Of a stretch of DNA of 25,271 nt, positions 5,951-20,191 are shown piece by piece. How positions within the stretch are numbered: the stretch's first letter is position 1; each line of letters starts with the position of its first letter. The stretch is from a virus, in IMG/VR virus record IMGVR_UViG_3300010885_001188, positions 1-25,271 of that record; one strand, written 5' to 3'. Position numbers and translations under genes: made by a program. The notes beneath the pieces are model-generated. The model saw nothing but the letters and a program-made list of their open reading frames with translations. It ran no database searches and had not been told where the DNA came from.

Positions 5951-6316
5951 ATGGCATTGCAAGACATTATAGAATATCAATTTCCTAAAGGGCAATCAGG
6001 CAATCCTAATGGTAGACCTAAAAAATATGTAAGCCTACTTATTGAGCAAGGGTATAAACTATCAGAGGTAAATGATACAATGCAAAATCTTATGGCTATG
6101 ACTGAAGACCAATTAAAAGCTATTGAAGAGGATGTTTTAGCAACTGCATTAGAAAGAACAGTATGCAAGGCTATACTTAATTCAATGAAAAAAGGTAGCC
6201 TATATTCAATAGAAACTTTACTTACTAGAGTTTATGGTAAACCAAAGGAACAGATGGATATTAAGTCTGATAATAAAATAGAAGTTATTTTTGTAGATGG
6301 TAAAACCATTTTATAG
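5951..6316 (+). CDS. DUF5681-containing putative small terminase subunit
   Basis: This 121-aa protein starts with the diagnostic DUF5681 motif FPKGQSGNPNGRPK (residues 11-24), followed by helical segments and a C-terminal beta hairpin (KIEVIFVDGKTI). DUF5681 proteins are commonly found next to large terminase genes and are treated as small terminase or DNA-recognition subunits. Here the stop codon overlaps the GTG start of the large terminase by one base. The ATG lies at the end of a perfect tandem 11-bp duplication (AACAAGACAAT at 5931-5952). DNA recognition for packaging is the inferred role. Confidence 0.8.
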   Translation: MALQDIIEYQFPKGQSGNPNGRPKKYVSLLIEQGYKLSEVNDTMQNLMAMTEDQLKAIEEDVLATALERTVCKAILNSMKKGSLYSIETLLTRVYGKPKEQMDIKSDNKIEVIFVDGKTIL

Positions 6317-7467
6317 TGCAAATATTTCTACCTAACCCACACGCAAACCAACAGAAGATACTTGAATGCGATAAACGATTCAGAGTAGTAATGTGTGGTA
6401 GAAGATTTGGCAAGTCAGAACTATCACAGATACTTTCAGTTACATATGCCGTTAAAGGACTTTCTGTAGCTTATATAACCCCTACTTACGGATTGGCGAA
6501 GGTTTTCTTTGGTAAGCTAACAGAGAGCCTAGAATTGCCTAAAAACAAGTCTGACCTTAAAATAGATTTTCCCAATGGTGGACAGGTAGAGTTCTTCACA
6601 GGTGAACGATTAGATAACCTTAGAGGTAGAAAGTTTCACTTAGTTATAATAGATGAAGCATCATATATCCCTGATTTAGAACAGGGGTGGCAAAATAGTA
6701 TAAGACCTACGCTAACAGATTACAAAGGCAAGGCTATCTTCTTATCAACACCTAGAGGTAAAAACTTTTTTTATAGTTTATTTATGAAGGCAGGGGAAAA
6801 TGATTGGGCATCGTTTAAGTTTACTAGCTATGATAACCCATTCATAGACCCACAAGAAATAGATGAAGCTAGGATGCAATTACCTGAAGTAGTATTTGAG
6901 CAGGAGTATATGGCAAACCCTAGCGAGAATAGTGCGAACCCATTCGGTAATAAGTTTATAGAGAATTGCATTAAACCAATGAGTAACCAACCTATAGTAG
7001 CATTTGGTATTGACTTAGCAAAGTCAGTTGACCATACAGTTATCATAGGCTTAGACAATGAAGGCAATGTGGCTTATTTTGACCGCTTCCAAATGGATTG
7101 GCATAATACTAAGGAGAATATTAAAAGGCTGCCTAGATGCCCTATATTGATAGATAGCACAGGTGTAGGAGACCCTATTACCGAAGACCTAAAAAGGGAG
7201 AACATAATGGTAGAAGGTTTAAAGTTTACAAGCCAATCTAAGCAGCAACTAATGGAGGGTCTAGCAACTGCCATCCAACAATCTAGGATAGGTTTTCCAA
7301 GTGGGGTTATAGTAAATGAGTTAGAAGTGTTTGAGTATCAATTCACTTCTAATGGGGTAAGGTACTCTTCACCTAGCGGATTCCACGATGATTGCGTTAT
7401 GGCACTAGCACTAGCGTGGTCTAATTTCAGCATTAAAAGGGGTAATGGTAGGTATTTATTTGTCTAA
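6316..7467 (+). CDS. terL: Terminase large subunit
   Basis: This 383-aa protein carries both terminase domains. ATPase: Walker A CGRRFGKSE (residues 27-35), Walker B LVIIDEAS (109-116, D113 and E114) and coupling motif FLSTPRG (142-148). RNase H-like nuclease: D233 in GIDLAKSVDHT, D280 in ILIDSTGVGD, and H357-D358-D359 near the C-terminus, followed by CVMALALAW. It powers DNA translocation into the procapsid and cuts the concatemer. The start is GTG 6316, overlapping the last base of the upstream stop. It is somewhat short for the family (often 400-550 aa) but has all key residues. The strategy (cos or pac) cannot be read from sequence alone. Confidence 0.95.
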   Translation: MQIFLPNPHANQQKILECDKRFRVVMCGRRFGKSELSQILSVTYAVKGLSVAYITPTYGLAKVFFGKLTESLELPKNKSDLKIDFPNGGQVEFFTGERLDNLRGRKFHLVIIDEASYIPDLEQGWQNSIRPTLTDYKGKAIFLSTPRGKNFFYSLFMKAGENDWASFKFTSYDNPFIDPQEIDEARMQLPEVVFEQEYMANPSENSANPFGNKFIENCIKPMSNQPIVAFGIDLAKSVDHTVIIGLDNEGNVAYFDRFQMDWHNTKENIKRLPRCPILIDSTGVGDPITEDLKRENIMVEGLKFTSQSKQQLMEGLATAIQQSRIGFPSGVIVNELEVFEYQFTSNGVRYSSPSGFHDDCVMALALAWSNFSIKRGNGRYLFV

Positions 7468-7501
7468 TTACCGTTCATCACTTATATTTACCGTTCATCA
7501 C
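7468..7501 (+). repeat. Perfect 14-bp direct repeat pair, 20-bp period
   Basis: TTACCGTTCATCAC occurs at 7468-7481 and again at 7488-7501. The 20-bp spacing is close to two helical turns, so both copies would face the same side of the DNA. The pair lies directly upstream of the promoter at 7528, where an activator or repressor would bind. Confidence 0.75.
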
Positions 7502-7527
7502 AAAGTTTAAAAATAGTTGGCAAAATG

Positions 7528-8212: not shown

Positions 8213-8868
8213 GTGTATGGCAATACCAACAGATTTATACTGCTCTTAACTCTAAAGAGAAAGATGCAACAGATTTAGACTTAGAAGTTAAATTAGTAGG
8301 CATAGTCAACAATATGACTGAAATGCAAATAGATAGCCTTCCTTTGAATGAATACAAAGAGTTGAGTAAAACTATTACTTTCTTAAATGAGCCAATACAA
8401 GGCACTCCTAAGAAGCATATAGCCATATCTAGGAGTAGAAGGTACAGGATTAACTACGACATCAGCAAGATGCCATTCGCAAGGTATATAGAAAGCAAGG
8501 TATTTAGTGAGGATTTATATGGCAACCTACATAAGTTAGCAGCGACAATGGTAATACCACAGAAAAGAAAGCTAGGATTTTGGGTTGACCAACCCTATGA
8601 TGCAAGTAAACATCAGGAGTATTCCAACGATATGCTAGAGGCTAAGTTTGTAGATGTTTACCATTCGCTTGTTTTTTTTTATCAAGTATACAGAAATTGG
8701 ATAGAAGTTTCACAGGATTATTTGGTGAGCAAGTTGAAGGAAGCAGGGATGAAGGAGGACAAAGCGAAAGAGGTGGCAGCAAGTTTATGCAGTATTTTGG
8801 ATGGCAATATTCAGCCAAACTTATTGCCGAGTACGAAAATTGCACAGTTACGCAAGTATATGAAATGA
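8179..8868 (+). CDS. Putative tail assembly chaperone (G-like)
   Basis: This 229-aa protein starts at ATG 8179 (a TTG at 8149 in frame is less likely). The N-terminal layout (WEKISVWQYQQIYTAL, an acidic stretch, LVGIVNNMTEMQIDSLPLNE, then LSKTITFLNEP) resembles phage tail assembly chaperones. These proteins keep the tape measure soluble and recruit tail tube subunits. A run of nine T (8672-8680) lies at codons 165-168, and the -1 frame is open from 8646 to 8951. A frameshifted longer form is therefore likely, as for lambda G/GT. The zero-frame C-terminus (KLKEAGMKEDKAKEVAASL) also looks like genuine protein. Position before the other tail genes supports the call. Confidence 0.6.
   Translation: MQNQRPMWEKISVWQYQQIYTALNSKEKDATDLDLEVKLVGIVNNMTEMQIDSLPLNEYKELSKTITFLNEPIQGTPKKHIAISRSRRYRINYDISKMPFARYIESKVFSEDLYGNLHKLAATMVIPQKRKLGFWVDQPYDASKHQEYSNDMLEAKFVDVYHSLVFFYQVYRNWIEVSQDYLVSKLKEAGMKEDKAKEVAASLCSILDGNIQPNLLPSTKIAQLRKYMK
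8672..8680 (+). other. Candidate -1 programmed ribosomal frameshift site (T9)
   Basis: Nine consecutive T are read in the chaperone frame as (g)TT TTT TTT T(at). This contains a slippery heptamer of form X XXY YYZ with all T (8673-8679). A -1 slip continues without a stop to 8951, producing a fusion of about 257 aa whose new 90-residue tail includes the T-like domain. The site sits just inside the left edge of the -1 open frame (8646). Confidence 0.55.
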
Positions 8869-8951
8869 GTACAATAGAATGTTTAAATAGCTTATCATAT
8901 CTAAAGGCTAAGACAGATTTTGATAATGAACAGATAAAGAAAATAAGATAG
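8787..8951 (+). CDS. Tail assembly chaperone T-like extension
   Basis: The -1 frame encodes MQYFGWQYSAKLIAEYENCT, then EMSTIECLNSLSYLKAKTDF, ending DNEQIKKIR. The pattern (aromatic FGW start, helix, then a predicted helix ending in a charged tail) resembles the T part of tail chaperone GT proteins in related phages. It may be made as an extension of the upstream gene by frameshifting at 8672-8680 (open frame 8646-8951). Alternatively it could be translated on its own from ATG 8787 (54 aa) or from ATG 8865, which overlaps the upstream stop as ATGA. The linker between the T9 run and 8787 is Gly/Glu/Arg/Ser-rich. Confidence 0.55.
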   Translation: MQYFGWQYSAKLIAEYENCTVTQVYEMSTIECLNSLSYLKAKTDFDNEQIKKIR

Positions 8952-8980
8952 TTTGCATAGTTTAGGTTTTGGTTTGACTA

Positions 8981-9005
8981 CCCCTGCTCTTAAAAAAGGT
9001 GGGGG
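8981..9005 (+). terminator. Weak terminator-like hairpin
   Basis: CCCCTGCT (8981-8988) can pair with GGTGGGGG (8998-9005) using several G-U wobbles over a 9-nt loop, followed by the T-rich TTAGTTATTTT. The same CCCCTGC...GGTGGGGG arms occur in the stronger terminator at 17562-17595. It separates the chaperone from the gp10-like gene and may only attenuate. Confidence 0.4.
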
Positions 9006-9039
9006 TTAGTTATTTTAGGGCATTATCCTATTTATTTGT

Positions 9040-9702
9040 ATGAGCATTAGTAAAGCACAGGCAGAGTTTTTAGCAAGTGGAATCCTAAATAGATTAGGTG
9101 AGCAGCGCATTAAGGAAGATGAATTTCCTGTTGTTGAATCATTACTTAATCAATTTGGTGGTCAATTTGTTATAACTGCTCAAAATAATCTAATAGCTAA
9201 TAAAAATATAGCAAGTGGTGATATAAAGGATATCAGGACAAATATTACAAAATATGGAAATACATATACTTTGTCTTTGGGTTATTCTAAAAATCAACCT
9301 GCATCAAAGTATTGGAAATTTGTAAATAAAGGTGTTAGAGGAACTAAAAACGAAAAGGCAGATAGCAAAACACCTTATAAATTTAACCCATCTAAAAAGA
9401 GCATTCCGATTGCAGTAGCACAAAGAATGATAGATTCAGGTAAAAAGAAAACTACATCTGTAAAACCTTATAGAAAACTAGGAGTAGAAACTAAGGCAAT
9501 AGAAGATAAAAAGTCTTTAGCTTATTTAATAGCTAGGTCAATACATAGAAGAGGATTAAGTTCAACACATTACTTTGATAATGCAGCTAAAGAAACATTC
9601 GGTCAAAACTTCTATGATGTAATGACTGCAGCATTAGGTAAAGATATTCAAATTAAAATTAGACAAATAGGTAAAGAAAATGGCAATAACAATACAAAGT
9701 AG
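9040..9702 (+). CDS. HK97 gp10-like / tail completion protein
   Basis: This 220-aa protein has an N-terminal helical part (KAQAEFLASGILNRL, ESLLNQFGGQF), a central beta segment (TYTLSLGYSKNQ; KYWKFVNKGVRG) and a C-terminal motif IHRRGLSSTHYFDNAAKETF. The last is typical of HK97 gp10-like or head-tail completion proteins in Bacteroidota phages as I recall them. These join head and tail or cap the tube. The start ATG 9040 follows a short intergenic region. The end overlaps the next gene by 23 nt. Confidence 0.5.
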   Translation: MSISKAQAEFLASGILNRLGEQRIKEDEFPVVESLLNQFGGQFVITAQNNLIANKNIASGDIKDIRTNITKYGNTYTLSLGYSKNQPASKYWKFVNKGVRGTKNEKADSKTPYKFNPSKKSIPIAVAQRMIDSGKKKTTSVKPYRKLGVETKAIEDKKSLAYLIARSIHRRGLSSTHYFDNAAKETFGQNFYDVMTAALGKDIQIKIRQIGKENGNNNTK

Positions 9703-14767: not shown

Positions 14768-15361
14768 ATGAGTATGGAATTACCTTTATATATGTTGGAA
14801 ATATCAGATGATTTATTGGATGATGCAGAGGTGCAATTCGTATCATTAGTAGATAGACCTGCAATTCAAAAGAATTGGAATGCCTTTAAAAATGAACAAA
14901 AGTTTCAAATCATTAGCGAAGATAAGCACATTATTAGTGGTTGCGCTATGTTGGCTGACACGCCTATTTTTAGAAGTGATGCTACTTTTGGTGATTACTA
15001 TGTGGCTTTTTCTAAAGATACTATTACAAAAATTGTTCAGAAATATTTTAAAAAAGGATATCAAAACAATGTAAACCTAATGCACGACCCTAATCAAATT
15101 GAAACAGGGGTAACTATGTTTGAAAGTTTTATTAGTGATAAGTCTAGAGGCATAGCACCAATGAAAGGATTTGAAGATGCACCTGATGGTAGTTGGTTTT
15201 GTTCAATGCTAGTAGAGAATGATGCAGTATGGGAACAAGTTAAAGCAGGTAAGATTAACGGATTCTCTATTGAAGGAATATTTAACTATACTCCTAAAGC
15301 AAGTCAAGACCAAGTTAAGATGCAAAAGATAAAAAACATATTAGAACAGATTGAGTTCTAA
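14768..15361 (+). CDS. XkdF-like prohead serine protease
   Basis: This 197-aa protein matches the phage XkdF/S78-like serine protease family. The N-terminus (ELPLYMLEISDD..AEVQFVSLVDRPAI) is followed by a catalytic region with NLMHDPNQ (H106), a strand pair GVTMFESFISDK, and GFSIEG (S167) after VKAGKIN. It cleaves capsid and scaffold proteins during prohead maturation. It lies immediately before scaffold and major capsid genes, the usual head module order. ATG 14768 is the first start (a second, MELPLYML, follows two codons later). Confidence 0.8.
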   Translation: MSMELPLYMLEISDDLLDDAEVQFVSLVDRPAIQKNWNAFKNEQKFQIISEDKHIISGCAMLADTPIFRSDATFGDYYVAFSKDTITKIVQKYFKKGYQNNVNLMHDPNQIETGVTMFESFISDKSRGIAPMKGFEDAPDGSWFCSMLVENDAVWEQVKAGKINGFSIEGIFNYTPKASQDQVKMQKIKNILEQIEF

Positions 15362-16011: not shown

Positions 16012-16962
16012 ATGTCATTTTCAATTAGTTCATTAACGAATTATACTAAAGAGAACGAAGCACAGTTAGTTACTTCTTCTGTTTTAGGTGCAAAAACTGC
16101 TGCTCTTATTAAGAGTGCAGGTAATGTTATGGTTGGTGTTAAGTCAGCACAAACTATCAACATTATGGATACAGATGCTTTCTTCCAAACAGGTGGTACT
16201 TGCGGATGGAATGCAAGTGGTACAACTTCTTTCACTCAAAGAACTGTAACAGTAGGTAAAATCAAAGTACAAGAATCTTTATGTCCAAAGTCATTAGAAG
16301 CTAAATACTTACAAAAGGCTTTACCAACAGGTTCAATTTATGATTCAATTCCTTTTGAGCAAGATTTTACAGATAGAAAAGCTAAAACAATTGCTGCTCA
16401 ATTAGAGAGTGCAATTTGGCAAGGTGATACAACTTCTGCTAATGGTAACTTAAATAAGTTTGATGGTTTAATCAAATTGATTGGTGCTGCTTCAGGTGTT
16501 ATTGATGCTAATGTATCAGGATTTATTTCAGGTGCGCCTTTAACTTCAATTACTTCTGCTAACGTAGTAAGTTTATTTGATGGTGTTTACAAAGCAATTC
16601 CTGCTAAAGTAGTATCAATGGAAGATATGGTTATTGTATGTGGTGTTGATACTTTCCGTACTTACACTATTGCATTAAAGAACTCAAACTTATTTGCATA
16701 TACTTTTGATGGTAAAGCTGATTCTGAATTTGTATTGCCAGGGACTTCAATTAAAGTTATTGCTTTAAATGGTTTAAATGGAACTAATGATGTTTACGCA
16801 ATGCGTTTAAGCAACTTGTTCTTAGGTACAGATTTATTGAACGAAGAAGAGAAATTTGACATCTTCTTTGCAAAAGAGGCTGATGAAGTTCGTTTTGCAG
16901 CAGAGTTCAAAATGGGTGTGAATATCGCATTCCCTGATGAAGTTGTAAAAGTGAATATCTAA
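16012..16962 (+). CDS. Major capsid protein (HK97 fold)
   Basis: This 316-aa protein has the order of an HK97-fold capsid protein. An N-terminal extension leads into KAKTIAAQLESAIWQGD (residues 123-139), a spine-type helix and strand. The P-domain-like region (MEDMVIVCGVDTFRTY) follows, then C-terminal beta strands near YAMRLSNLFLGTDLL. It is preceded by protease and scaffold and followed by a hairpin at 16970, as expected for a very abundant product. The ATG lies after aaatttataaacaATG. Confidence 0.85.
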   Translation: MSFSISSLTNYTKENEAQLVTSSVLGAKTAALIKSAGNVMVGVKSAQTINIMDTDAFFQTGGTCGWNASGTTSFTQRTVTVGKIKVQESLCPKSLEAKYLQKALPTGSIYDSIPFEQDFTDRKAKTIAAQLESAIWQGDTTSANGNLNKFDGLIKLIGAASGVIDANVSGFISGAPLTSITSANVVSLFDGVYKAIPAKVVSMEDMVIVCGVDTFRTYTIALKNSNLFAYTFDGKADSEFVLPGTSIKVIALNGLNGTNDVYAMRLSNLFLGTDLLNEEEKFDIFFAKEADEVRFAAEFKMGVNIAFPDEVVKVNI

Positions 16963-17018: not shown

Positions 17019-17537
17019 ATGGCGTGTGCATTAACTCAGGGATATACCCTAGATTGTCGTGATTCCTTAGGTGGAATTACCGAAGTTTATTTTATTGCAA
17101 GTTCAGATGTCGCATCTACTACCGAAGCAAGTGGAGTTATTAGTGCAATAACTAAATCTACAGGTAAGAGATTCTATAAATATGAGTTAACAAAAGGTAC
17201 TTCAATGTTTACTGAAACAGTAGCAGCGAATGTACAAAATGGTACATTGTATTATACAACTGAATTAACAATAATTTTAAATAAATTACAAGCAAATACA
17301 AGAAATGAAATCTTGTTATTAGCTCAAAATAGATTGAATGCTGTTGCTAAAGATAGTAATGGTAAATATTGGTATCTTGGTAAAACAAGAACATTAGATT
17401 TGACAGGTGGTAGTGCCGCTACAGGTACTGCTGAAGGAGATAGAAGTGGATATACTTTAACTTTTAGCGGAGCAGAAGCTGCTTTAGCACCTGAAGTAAG
17501 TAGTTCTATTATAGCTTCTTTAACAACTGCAGGTTAG
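17019..17537 (+). CDS. Probable major tail tube protein
   Basis: This 172-aa protein starts MACALTQGYTLDCRDSLGGI. It ends with strand-rich TLTFSGAEAALAPEV preceded by TGTAEGDRSGY, the pattern of phage tail tube proteins. It is small, beta-rich and near the capsid gene, and is followed by the strongest terminator in the window, consistent with high expression. The tail module (8179-14747) lies upstream of the head module, so the tube gene is separated from the tape measure gene. A capsid decoration protein is the main alternative. Confidence 0.6.
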   Translation: MACALTQGYTLDCRDSLGGITEVYFIASSDVASTTEASGVISAITKSTGKRFYKYELTKGTSMFTETVAANVQNGTLYYTTELTIILNKLQANTRNEILLLAQNRLNAVAKDSNGKYWYLGKTRTLDLTGGSAATGTAEGDRSGYTLTFSGAEAALAPEVSSSIIASLTTAG

Positions 17538-17561: not shown

Positions 17562-17595
17562 CCCCTGCCTAGTTTTCTAGGTGGGGGTTTTTTTT
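17562..17595 (+). terminator. Strong intrinsic terminator
   Basis: CCCCTGCCTAG (17562-17572) pairs with CTAGGTGGGGG (17577-17587) as an uninterrupted 11-bp stem with two G-U pairs and a TTTT loop, followed by eight T (17588-17595). It ends the protease-scaffold-capsid-tube transcription unit. Confidence 0.85.
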
Positions 17596-17635
17596 ATCCA
17601 TATTTATTCGTAGATATACGCATATGAGTCAAAAA

Positions 17636-17716
17636 GTCAAGTTATTGACTTATGTTATAACATTTGTCAAGTTATAACTTTACTGAATTGGATTTCAGTC
17701 AAGCAATAACTTTACT
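17636..17716 (+). repeat. Three spaced repeats with 30-32 bp period
   Basis: GTCAAGTTAT occurs at 17636-17645 and 17666-17675, 30 bp apart. The longer GTCAAGTTATAACTTTACT (17666-17684) matches GTCAAGCAATAACTTTACT (17698-17716) at 17 of 19 positions, 32 bp on. The first copy is itself an inverted repeat (GTCAA GTTA TTGAC). About three helical turns per step suits cooperative protein binding (operator or iteron array). Confidence 0.65.
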
Positions 17717-17720
17717 TTAA

Positions 17721-17740
17721 TCATTGTACATCATTGTACA
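17721..17740 (+). repeat. Perfect tandem 10-bp repeat
   Basis: TCATTGTACA is repeated twice without a gap (17721-17740). The second copy with the next bases forms the palindrome CATTGTACAATG (17732-17743). Confidence 0.7.
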
Positions 17741-17741
17741 A

Positions 17742-17778
17742 TGTTCACGTATTCGTGAAAGTTTACTTTTTGTGAACA
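17742..17778 (+). repeat. Nested inverted repeats
   Basis: TTCACG (17744-17749) and CGTGAA (17754-17759) flank a 4-nt loop. TGTTCAC (17742-17748) can alternatively pair with GTGAACA (17772-17778). The two foldings compete, as in a switch-like or operator element. Confidence 0.6.
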
Positions 17779-17834
17779 ATAAGTAACAATATTACCTATT
17801 TTGAAAACATTTATATAATTGCTATTTATATTTG

Positions 17835-18209
17835 ATGATACATTTAACTAAAGGCGAAACAAATACTATTGTTATGACACTAACTGAAAAACAGTTGTTG
17901 AGTAACCCTAATTATTTATTTGTATTTATAAATAGAAGTAGTAATTGTGAGGTAAAATTTATCAAATTAAATGCAACAGATACAAGTTTGTACAAAAATA
18001 GGTACAATGTTTTTAGCATAGTTACTAATACATACTTTAAAAACGAATTAGAAGGTCAATATACCTATGAAGTTTACGAACAAGCAAGTACTACCAATTT
18101 AGATATAACAGGCTTAAACAAGCTAGAAACAGGCATTATGTGGCTTTTAGGAACTACTATGACATATAATCAATATACAACAACAGACACTTATACAATT
18201 AGACAATGA
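17835..18209 (+). CDS. Small beta-rich protein upstream of portal
   Basis: This 124-aa protein starts at ATG 17835 (a TTG one codon earlier is unlikely). The sequence alternates strands (LFVFINRSSNCEVKFIKL; YNVFSIVTN; GQYTYEVYEQ) and looks like a single beta-sandwich without a signal peptide. Similar small proteins before the portal gene in Bacteroidota phages have no fixed name as far as I know. It resembles the 122-aa BppU-like protein at 23149 in length and strand pattern, so a baseplate or neck role is possible. Its stop overlaps the portal start (ATGA). Confidence 0.55.
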   Translation: MIHLTKGETNTIVMTLTEKQLLSNPNYLFVFINRSSNCEVKFIKLNATDTSLYKNRYNVFSIVTNTYFKNELEGQYTYEVYEQASTTNLDITGLNKLETGIMWLLGTTMTYNQYTTTDTYTIRQ

Positions 18210-20191
18210 TAGATTTAAGAGTATTAACATTTGCAGAAGCTAGACAACCTGAATTTAAAGAAAAGAAAGGTATTGATGGTGGCTACATTAAATATGGAGA
18301 AAACAATGATTATCCTGAATATATAGTAGATTTATATAATAAGTCATCTAAACATAGTGCAATTGTTAAAAGCAAGGTGCATTATATTACAGGCAATGGT
18401 TGGTCAGGTGAACCTGATGCTAAAGCATTTATAGATAAAGCAAATAGAGTAGAAACATTAAATGATTTAACTAGAAAAGTATCTTTAGATATAGAGATAT
18501 TTGGTGGCGCTTATTTAGAAATTATTTGGGATTTATCAGGTAACCTTGCTGAGATATGGCATTGTGATTATGTAAAAATTAGAACTAATAAAGATAATAC
18601 GCAGTATTGGTATAAAGAAGATTGGAAAGATAATAAGGTTAAACCTAGTGTAATAGCTGCATTTAATCCTAAACAACCAACAGGTAAACAAATTCTTTAC
18701 ATTAAAGAGTACAGACCTAATATTGGTATTTATGGATTGCCATCTTATTTTGCTGCATTAAACTATATTGAAAGTGATATTGAAGTATCTAAGCATATTT
18801 TAGGAAATGCACAAACAGGGTTTTCAGCTAGTAAACTTATTACCTTGCCAAATGGTGAGCCTAATGATGAAGAGAAACGTAATGTAGATAATAGATTAAG
18901 AAAGACTTATAGTGGTGCAGATGGTAAGAAATATATGATTGCTTTTGTTAATGATATATCTAGGAAGCCTGTCGTAGATGATTTAGGTACAAGTGATTTA
19001 ACTAAAGAAGATTTTGGTAGAGTAGATGAATTGATTCAAACTAATATATTTAGTGGACATCAAGTTACTACTCCTTCTATTATGGGTATTGCTGAATCAG
19101 GTAAGTTAGGAAGCAGAACAGAGATGCGTGATGGTTATGAGATATTTAAAAACACTTATGTTAATGCAAAACAAATGCATTTAGAAAGTGTATTTAATAT
19201 GTTAGCTAAATATAAAGGTGTTACAACTGAAATAAAGATTATACCTACAGAACCAATTGGAATAGAATTTAGTGAACAAACAATAGCTTCAGTTGCACCT
19301 AAAGATTGGATATTAGAAAAGATAGGTATTGATATGACTAAATATGCACCTACTATTGATTCTACTGCACCTGCACAGGGTTTATCTGTTAATGAACATA
19401 TCAAAGGTCTAAAAGGTAGAGAGTGGCAGAATATGCAGCGTATAATTCGTGAGTTTACTAAAGGTAAAATTAATAGAGACCAAGCTACTGCAATGCTTAA
19501 AACAGGATATGCTTTAAGTGATGAGGAAGTTAATACTTGGTTAGGTTCAGAAGAATTAGATGCACAATTTGCTGCACAAGATTTTAGTGTATTTTATGAG
19601 TTTGGTGAGAATAAAGAATCATTTAATATTTGGAAAACAAGTAAAAGATTTAGTGATGAAGCAGACTTTTATATGTTTGCTGATGTTAACCAATTAGAAT
19701 CAGATATACTTGACCAAATTTCTAAACAAAAGGATATTACTCCAGAAGTATTAGCAGAGGTATTAGATGAAAATGTTAATACAATTAATACTATTTTAAA
19801 GGATTTAGAAGATAGAAAAATATTAAAGGTTAAAGAAACTAAAATAGGAAAAGGAATAGATAGTAATATTATTGTATCAAGAGAATTAACACAACCATTA
19901 AGTAAGACAGTTAAAGATGTAAAACCACAGACAACAGAAATAATGGTTCGTTTTTCTTATGAATGGATTGAAGGATATAATGATTCAGATAAAAAAACAA
20001 GTAGACCATTTTGTGTTGCTTTATTAGATGCAAAAAAGCTATATAGTAGAAGTGATATTGAAATGATGAGTTCTAGATTAGGATATTCAGTATGGGATAG
20101 AAAAGGCGGATGGTGGAATGATAATGGAACGATAAGTGAATCTTGCCGTCATCAATGGAAAACAAATATAGTTACAAGAAAAATTAAATAA
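18206..20191 (+). CDS. Portal protein fused to winged-helix and MuF-like C-terminus
   Basis: This 661-aa protein is longer than a simple portal (often 400-550 aa). Residues 1-360 have the portal pattern: an N-terminal segment ending GYIKYGENNDYPEYI, a YLEIIW strand, and IFSGHQVTTPSIMG about residue 281. Residues 495-545 (LESDILDQISKQ, PEVLAEVLDENVNTI, LKDLEDRKILKVKE) form a winged-helix-like unit. Residues 580-655 carry a MuF/head-morphogenesis-type motif: RPFCVALLDAKKLYSRSDIE, GYSVWDRKGGWW and CRHQW (C647, R648, H649, W651). The portal ring connects head and tail and is the DNA channel. The extensions probably act in head morphogenesis, by inference. Confidence 0.8.
   Translation: MIDLRVLTFAEARQPEFKEKKGIDGGYIKYGENNDYPEYIVDLYNKSSKHSAIVKSKVHYITGNGWSGEPDAKAFIDKANRVETLNDLTRKVSLDIEIFGGAYLEIIWDLSGNLAEIWHCDYVKIRTNKDNTQYWYKEDWKDNKVKPSVIAAFNPKQPTGKQILYIKEYRPNIGIYGLPSYFAALNYIESDIEVSKHILGNAQTGFSASKLITLPNGEPNDEEKRNVDNRLRKTYSGADGKKYMIAFVNDISRKPVVDDLGTSDLTKEDFGRVDELIQTNIFSGHQVTTPSIMGIAESGKLGSRTEMRDGYEIFKNTYVNAKQMHLESVFNMLAKYKGVTTEIKIIPTEPIGIEFSEQTIASVAPKDWILEKIGIDMTKYAPTIDSTAPAQGLSVNEHIKGLKGREWQNMQRIIREFTKGKINRDQATAMLKTGYALSDEEVNTWLGSEELDAQFAAQDFSVFYEFGENKESFNIWKTSKRFSDEADFYMFADVNQLESDILDQISKQKDITPEVLAEVLDENVNTINTILKDLEDRKILKVKETKIGKGIDSNIIVSRELTQPLSKTVKDVKPQTTEIMVRFSYEWIEGYNDSDKKTSRPFCVALLDAKKLYSRSDIEMMSSRLGYSVWDRKGGWWNDNGTISESCRHQWKTNIVTRKIK

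Follow-up and report, generated by a model that had tools for sequence, protein, structure and literature searches.

For abiE, both AbiEi of Streptococcus agalactiae and Rv2827c of Mycobacterium tuberculosis have been established as autoregulators that act through inverted repeats (PMC7319586), and sets of these repeats in type IV toxin-antitoxin operators are bound by the antitoxin (PMC7319586, PMC3985639). In mobile mystery protein A/B systems (TIGR02612/TIGR02613, an HTH protein and a Fic protein) the operator has repeated imperfect palindromes about 33 bp apart, with a GTCAAG...CTTTAC variant in some Chitinophagaceae. Proteins and RNA mimics are known means by which phages overcome toxin-antitoxin systems; in phage phiTE, expansion of the pseudo-ToxI repeats, a short phage repeat locus copying the nucleic-acid part of such a system, leads to escape from abortive infection (PMC3475682). 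Gene-less DNA sites able to titrate a regulator are known as transcription-factor decoy sites or DNA sponges (PMC7686491, PMC7826281), and intergenic mosaics of palindromes, as bacterial interspersed mosaic elements (BIMEs) and REPINs (PMC2817692, PMC3116915).

The locus considered here occupies positions 17596-17834 of a DNA stretch of 25,271 nucleotides from a freshwater phage (IMG/VR record IMGVR_UViG_3300010885_001188), the whole of which is referred to as the window, and separates two operons of head genes. We give about even chances to this block being a mobile array of gene-less operator mimics that titrate host regulators. In phiTE, RNA mimics the antitoxin of one system, whereas here DNA would mimic the operators of several systems, the function being putative; decoy sites and sponges are engineered or chromosomal, whereas we propose a natural multi-target phage array. 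The single ingredients (AbiE operators, decoy sites and RNA mimicry of ToxI by phiTE) are known; a phage array of several operators of the toxin-antitoxin type was not found in the open-licence literature searched.

An earlier note, made from the sequence, had described a gene-free stretch with three repeats of 30-32 bp period, a perfect tandem decamer with a palindrome and two competing inverted repeats, flanked by a strong terminator and the portal operon. Its coordinates and all these features held on re-checking (Table 1), only the portal side being refined. The repeats are GTCAAGTTAT at 17636 and 17666 and GTCAAGCAAT at 17698, with spacings of 30 and 32 bp; the perfect tandem decamer ATCATTGTAC spans 17720-17739 within the palindrome CATTGTACA...TGTACAATG; and the inverted repeat GTTCACG/CGTGAA (17743-17759) has a competing partner, GTGAAC, at 17772-17777. 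There is no ORF of at least 60 aa between 17537 and 17832. The terminator has a stem of 11 bp followed by T8, and on the other side the portal gene, starting at 18206, is preceded by a gene that most likely starts at ATG 17835 and has a product of 124 aa. The right border may be a promoter-like or start-region box, a putative role. Elsewhere in the window, at 8983-9007, a second CCCCTGC...GGTGGGGG stem like the head-operon terminator is followed by CTATTTAT before the gene at 9040, and the two are perhaps a family-specific terminator plus start box.

Table 1. Parts of the block and the genes of the window, with positions in the window.
Feature	Position	Strand	Basis or remark
Terminase gene	6316-7467		
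Protease gene	14768-15361		
Head protein gene	16012-16962		
g1, protein of no recognised kind	17019-17537		Left flank of the block
Intrinsic terminator closing the head operon and forming the fixed left end of the variable site	17562-17595	+	Terminator scan; kept in compared family members, site empty or filled
Module A, imperfect palindrome ATCCATATTTATTCGTAGATATACGCATAT	17596-17625	.	First module in other inserts too
Module M1, three imperfect palindromes of GTCAAG-N4-ACTTTAC type at 17636, 17666 and 17698	17633-17716	.	Resembles operator of mobile mystery protein A (HTH)/B (Fic)
Two perfect tandem copies of the decamer ATCATTGTAC, with the palindrome CATTGTACA/TGTACAATG; module without an assignment	17720-17743	.	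Sequence
Module M2, TGTTCACG-TATT-CGTGAA-N12-GTGAACA	17742-17778	.	Resembles AbiEi_2 operator, 3/4 half-sites
GTAACAATATTACC, weakly like module K/M6 (GTAGTAATACTAC; AbiEi_3-AbiEii operator-like)	17783-17796	.	3 mismatches to M6; assignment uncertain
Conserved right border TTTTGNAAAYATT ... CTATTTAT ... before the portal operon	17799-17834	+	Beside ATG 17835; kept in empty and filled sites
g2, small protein	from ATG 17835		Right flank of the block
Portal protein gene	18206-20191		

The block is the densest hairpin cluster of the window, in agreement with the earlier statement that its repeat density is unlike that of any other part. Perfect 7-bp stems with loops of 3-12 number six in the block, the window maximum per 240 bp; the second-ranking separate place has three, the mean is 0.3, and 3 of 1000 Markov simulations attained six. 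In a single-stranded DNA fold the block has z = -6.8, none of 200 shuffles being equally stable. Structured RNA was considered and rejected, the Rfam matches all being below the gathering score and centred on the terminator side. Sites found in a sigma-70 promoter scan were no more numerous than in shuffles.

The portal search gave 80 loci, in 79 of which both g1 and g2 could be placed; together with the window, these made 80 genomes for comparison. In this set the terminator and the box before the g2 start are conserved; 21 genomes lack the DNA between them, their whole gap being 89-98 bp, and 59 have it, with gaps of 151 bp to 2 kb. The inserts are chains of palindromic modules, each a subset of about 13, and the module content differs widely between close relatives. 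In the window the modules are confined to this single region, and those of the window were not seen again outside the site in the relatives compared at first. In scans of viral contigs, however, modules turned up 3' of the terminase gene in L086/L087, a relative with an empty site here (L087 and L021 are one contig), at other places in relatives, and in contigs that lack this portal gene, some of them about 100 kb long. At the same spot just 3' of the terminase gene, the window has a direct repeat, TTACCGTTCATCAC x2, at 7468-7505. In the 34.7-kb relative L063 no array was detectable anywhere. Thus, being absent from some relatives and found at other sites and in other phages, the array is, as far as genome comparison tells, a dispensable, movable block.

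These data bear on two proposals of the earlier note, an iteron replication origin and a packaging start. Direct repeats and strong secondary structure would suit either, but a function required at this place is disfavoured by the 21 empty sites, by the array-free L063, by the array lying 3' of the terminase gene instead in L021/L087 and by the variation of content among close relatives, so that we regard both as very improbable. As for the conservation that the note proposed to check, the repeats are not conserved at this place, but their half-sites and spacings are conserved wherever they are present. Among named phages and plasmids the gene region had no DNA match, and those of the arrays were all short, AT-rich and chance-like; the nearest named portal is that of Nonlabens phage P12024 (26% identity).

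The module order is nearly fixed: with motif definitions of our own, 168 of 181 pairwise orders, taken from distinct arrangements, fit one sequence from A to M, and the exceptions include inverted blocks. Our initial idea had been transposition of the REP/BIME or double-hairpin kind, which was set back once the modules matched operators. Selfish hairpin repeats of this kind, spreading in intergenic DNA, would account for the many palindromes, their mosaic arrangement, their intergenic position and their occurrence in several phages. However, one high-copy REP family with a RAYT transposase would be characteristic of BIMEs, whereas the phage array is not high-copy, occupies as a rule one place per genome (one region in the window), keeps a nearly fixed order, and consists of several unrelated palindrome families with a half-site architecture identical to that of bacterial operators. 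We therefore consider selfish repeats improbable.

The array could also act in cis, a host or phage regulator controlling through its sites the portal operon or some phage promoter nearby. In favour of this, it lies directly upstream of the conserved portal-operon box and often ends with M1, about 42 nt ahead of the start codon. In the empty sites, however, the box is kept without any module; the modules abutting it differ among relatives; the arrays found elsewhere are rarely at gene starts; and some blocks are inverted, all of which makes cis-regulation hardly probable. The late-operon operator of the earlier note was nevertheless the closest of its three guesses, as the sites are operator-like, but they resemble bacterial toxin-antitoxin operators and not the phage's own.

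The M2 pattern, TGTTCACG-N4-CGTGAA, had 25 matches in a scan of about 85,000 bacterial and archaeal species genomes, 22 of them in Bacteroidota, and 12 of the 25 are placed immediately at the start of an AbiEi_2-type gene (PF09952) of roughly 333 aa, a family whose members serve a type IV toxin-antitoxin system both as antitoxin and as repressor. The host sites comprise four half-sites spaced N10-N4-N10, of which the window keeps three with exact spacing: the module has inverted GTTCAC half-sites, the N4 centre and the right outer half-site at N10. At least one outer half-site at N10 is present at all host sites (20/20; both sides, n = 17) and at 49 of 61 phage sites (both sides, n = 12). TAnnTTTG is a promoter box of Bacteroidota; it occurs at 11/20 host M2 sites, where 2.1 would be expected, and at 3/61 phage sites (expected 3.4). 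Thus M2 shares half-sites and spacing with AbiEi_2 operators, whereas the phage copies have neither an adjoining AbiEi gene nor the promoter box, and the copy in the window does not overlap an abiEi promoter or start. In L124, L131, L046 and L171 the palindrome ATCACAATTTGTGAT or a relative of it often adjoins M2, where the window has the ATCATTGTAC tandem; the two are possibly variants of one further module.

Module M16 (TGAGTAA-N2-TTACTCA) is found in relatives and is absent from the window. Its host matches have four half-sites and precede an AAA_14/DUF4143 ATPase gene by about 21 bp, and in all 11 phage sites a third half-site is present at the same 6-bp distance without a mismatch. For M3 (two patterns), M8 and M12, no host operators were found in about 190-220 genomes, and no host partner was found for modules A, B, C/M3, G/M8, H/M7, J and M12.

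Two contigs of this phage family, L190 and L253, are binned in the Chitinophagaceae MAG UBA8137 (G003), either through contamination or as a hint at the host, for which binning is weak evidence. Within 0.92 Mb of this MAG the sole M2-type site outside the phage contig precedes an AbiEi_2 gene, after which comes a weak AbiEii match, and this operator and the module in L190 share an exact 18-bp core, TGTTCACTGCCCGTGAAC. Near the same AbiEi_2 gene there is an M16-like four-half-site sequence (L297 3649-3697; L268 around 1500), beside which no intact AAA_14 gene was detected. The sole M6 site in the 0.92 Mb precedes an AbiEi_3-AbiEii pair, and an M9-like site (29/32) lies 18 bp before a Fic_N/Fic gene. 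As BLAST scores of the arrays against the 0.92 Mb were at chance level, no better than those of shuffled controls, the case for this MAG rests on position beside toxin-antitoxin genes. M6 had three matches in 368 genomes, fewer than the reversed control and none at a toxin-antitoxin gene, and in the host search the exact M9 pattern matched one phage contig only; hence the assignments of M6 and M9 rest on this one MAG.

For M1, which holds the 30-32 bp repeats, matching palindromes were found in Chitinophagaceae genomes upstream of the gene for mobile mystery protein A; of the five such genomes with a match, four had it at this gene. The gene encodes an HTH protein and neighbours that of the Fic protein mobile mystery protein B, and at many of its loci three or four palindromes resembling one another recur at about 33 bp (a strict pattern recognised them at 14 of 30 loci). 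A unit spacing of 33 bp was observed in 23/29 host pairs and 16/21 phage pairs. The window likewise holds several palindromes of the GTCARG type with a period of about 33 bp, but differs from the described operator in its spacings (30 and 32 bp), in a degenerate first unit and in having no mobile mystery protein A gene, either directly downstream or anywhere else in the window.

In a tblastn search of 187 phage loci, mobile mystery protein A was found only as the HTH of three MUG113 proteins, and no AbiEi_2 homologue and no AAA_14 were found. The three genes encode fusions of MUG113/T5orf172 (GIY-YIG-like) and HTH, all on the minus strand (L023, 8741-9229; L127, 12745-13230; L152, 2405-2884). 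Their HTH matches mobile mystery protein A at 34% over 68 aa, and M1-type sites overlap the start of each gene; the product is possibly a nuclease reusing the DNA-binding domain of an antitoxin. As M1 is thus also the apparent operator of a phage gene, it need not target the host. The variable gap takes up other nuclease genes as well, L036 having an endonuclease VII-type HNH gene inside it (8669-9115, minus strand).

The main rival explanation, which we consider unlikely, is that the modules are operators left by mobile cassettes (homing-type nucleases, toxin-antitoxin-like genes) that entered the hotspot, spread and decayed, with no present function. The presence of the MUG113/T5orf172-HTH gene in L023 and of the endonuclease VII gene in L036 at this same insert site speaks for it; such a gene could have left M1 behind as its operator, given the M1-type sites over all three MUG113-HTH gene starts; and transfer of cassettes fits both the fixed order and the inverted blocks. 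Unlike the outcome of neutral decay, however, half-sites and spacings are near-perfect while the spacers vary (M16, 11/11; M1, 33 bp), and operators far outnumber genes, no AbiEi_2 or AAA_14 gene having turned up in the phage loci searched. The near-perfect half-sites, and the lack of genes for modules other than M1, favour present function, though not decisively.

We may conclude that the identification of the modules as operator-like sites of bacterial regulators is well supported by the comparisons, while the decoy role of the array is putative. These comparisons show a block that is either present or missing at one site, modules in fixed order whose half-sites and spacings match those of operators, no AbiEi_2 or AAA_14 gene in the phage loci searched, and no promoter box kept. 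If the array does consist of operator mimics, each module would copy the binding site of a different DNA-binding regulator of Bacteroidota. The targets identified would mainly belong to toxin-antitoxin or Fic systems (mobile mystery protein A/B, AbiEi_2, AbiEi_3-AbiEii and the Fic_N protein), and one would be the AAA_14/DUF4143 ATPase gene. Placed between the head terminator and the portal operon, the array would disturb neither. Replicating phage DNA would multiply the sites and so titrate host antitoxin-repressors or hold them DNA-bound; the effect may be either derepression, yielding more antitoxin, or stabilisation of the DNA-bound complex. Altered toxin-antitoxin control during infection would favour the phage, but titration of an antitoxin could also hurt it. 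We put forward only tentatively, with the balance tilting somewhat against it, that the array is a counter-defence element of a new class: a fixed-order modular DNA array, common to different phages, that gathers operators of many host toxin-antitoxin and abortive-infection systems and would manipulate several of these defences together by regulator titration.

If true, this would explain the recurring hairpin-rich spacers in these Bacteroidota phages and would constitute a cheap multi-target anti-defence principle. Each module that has no partner as yet would then predict a host operator together with its system and, read in reverse, the array would be a catalogue of host defence operators.
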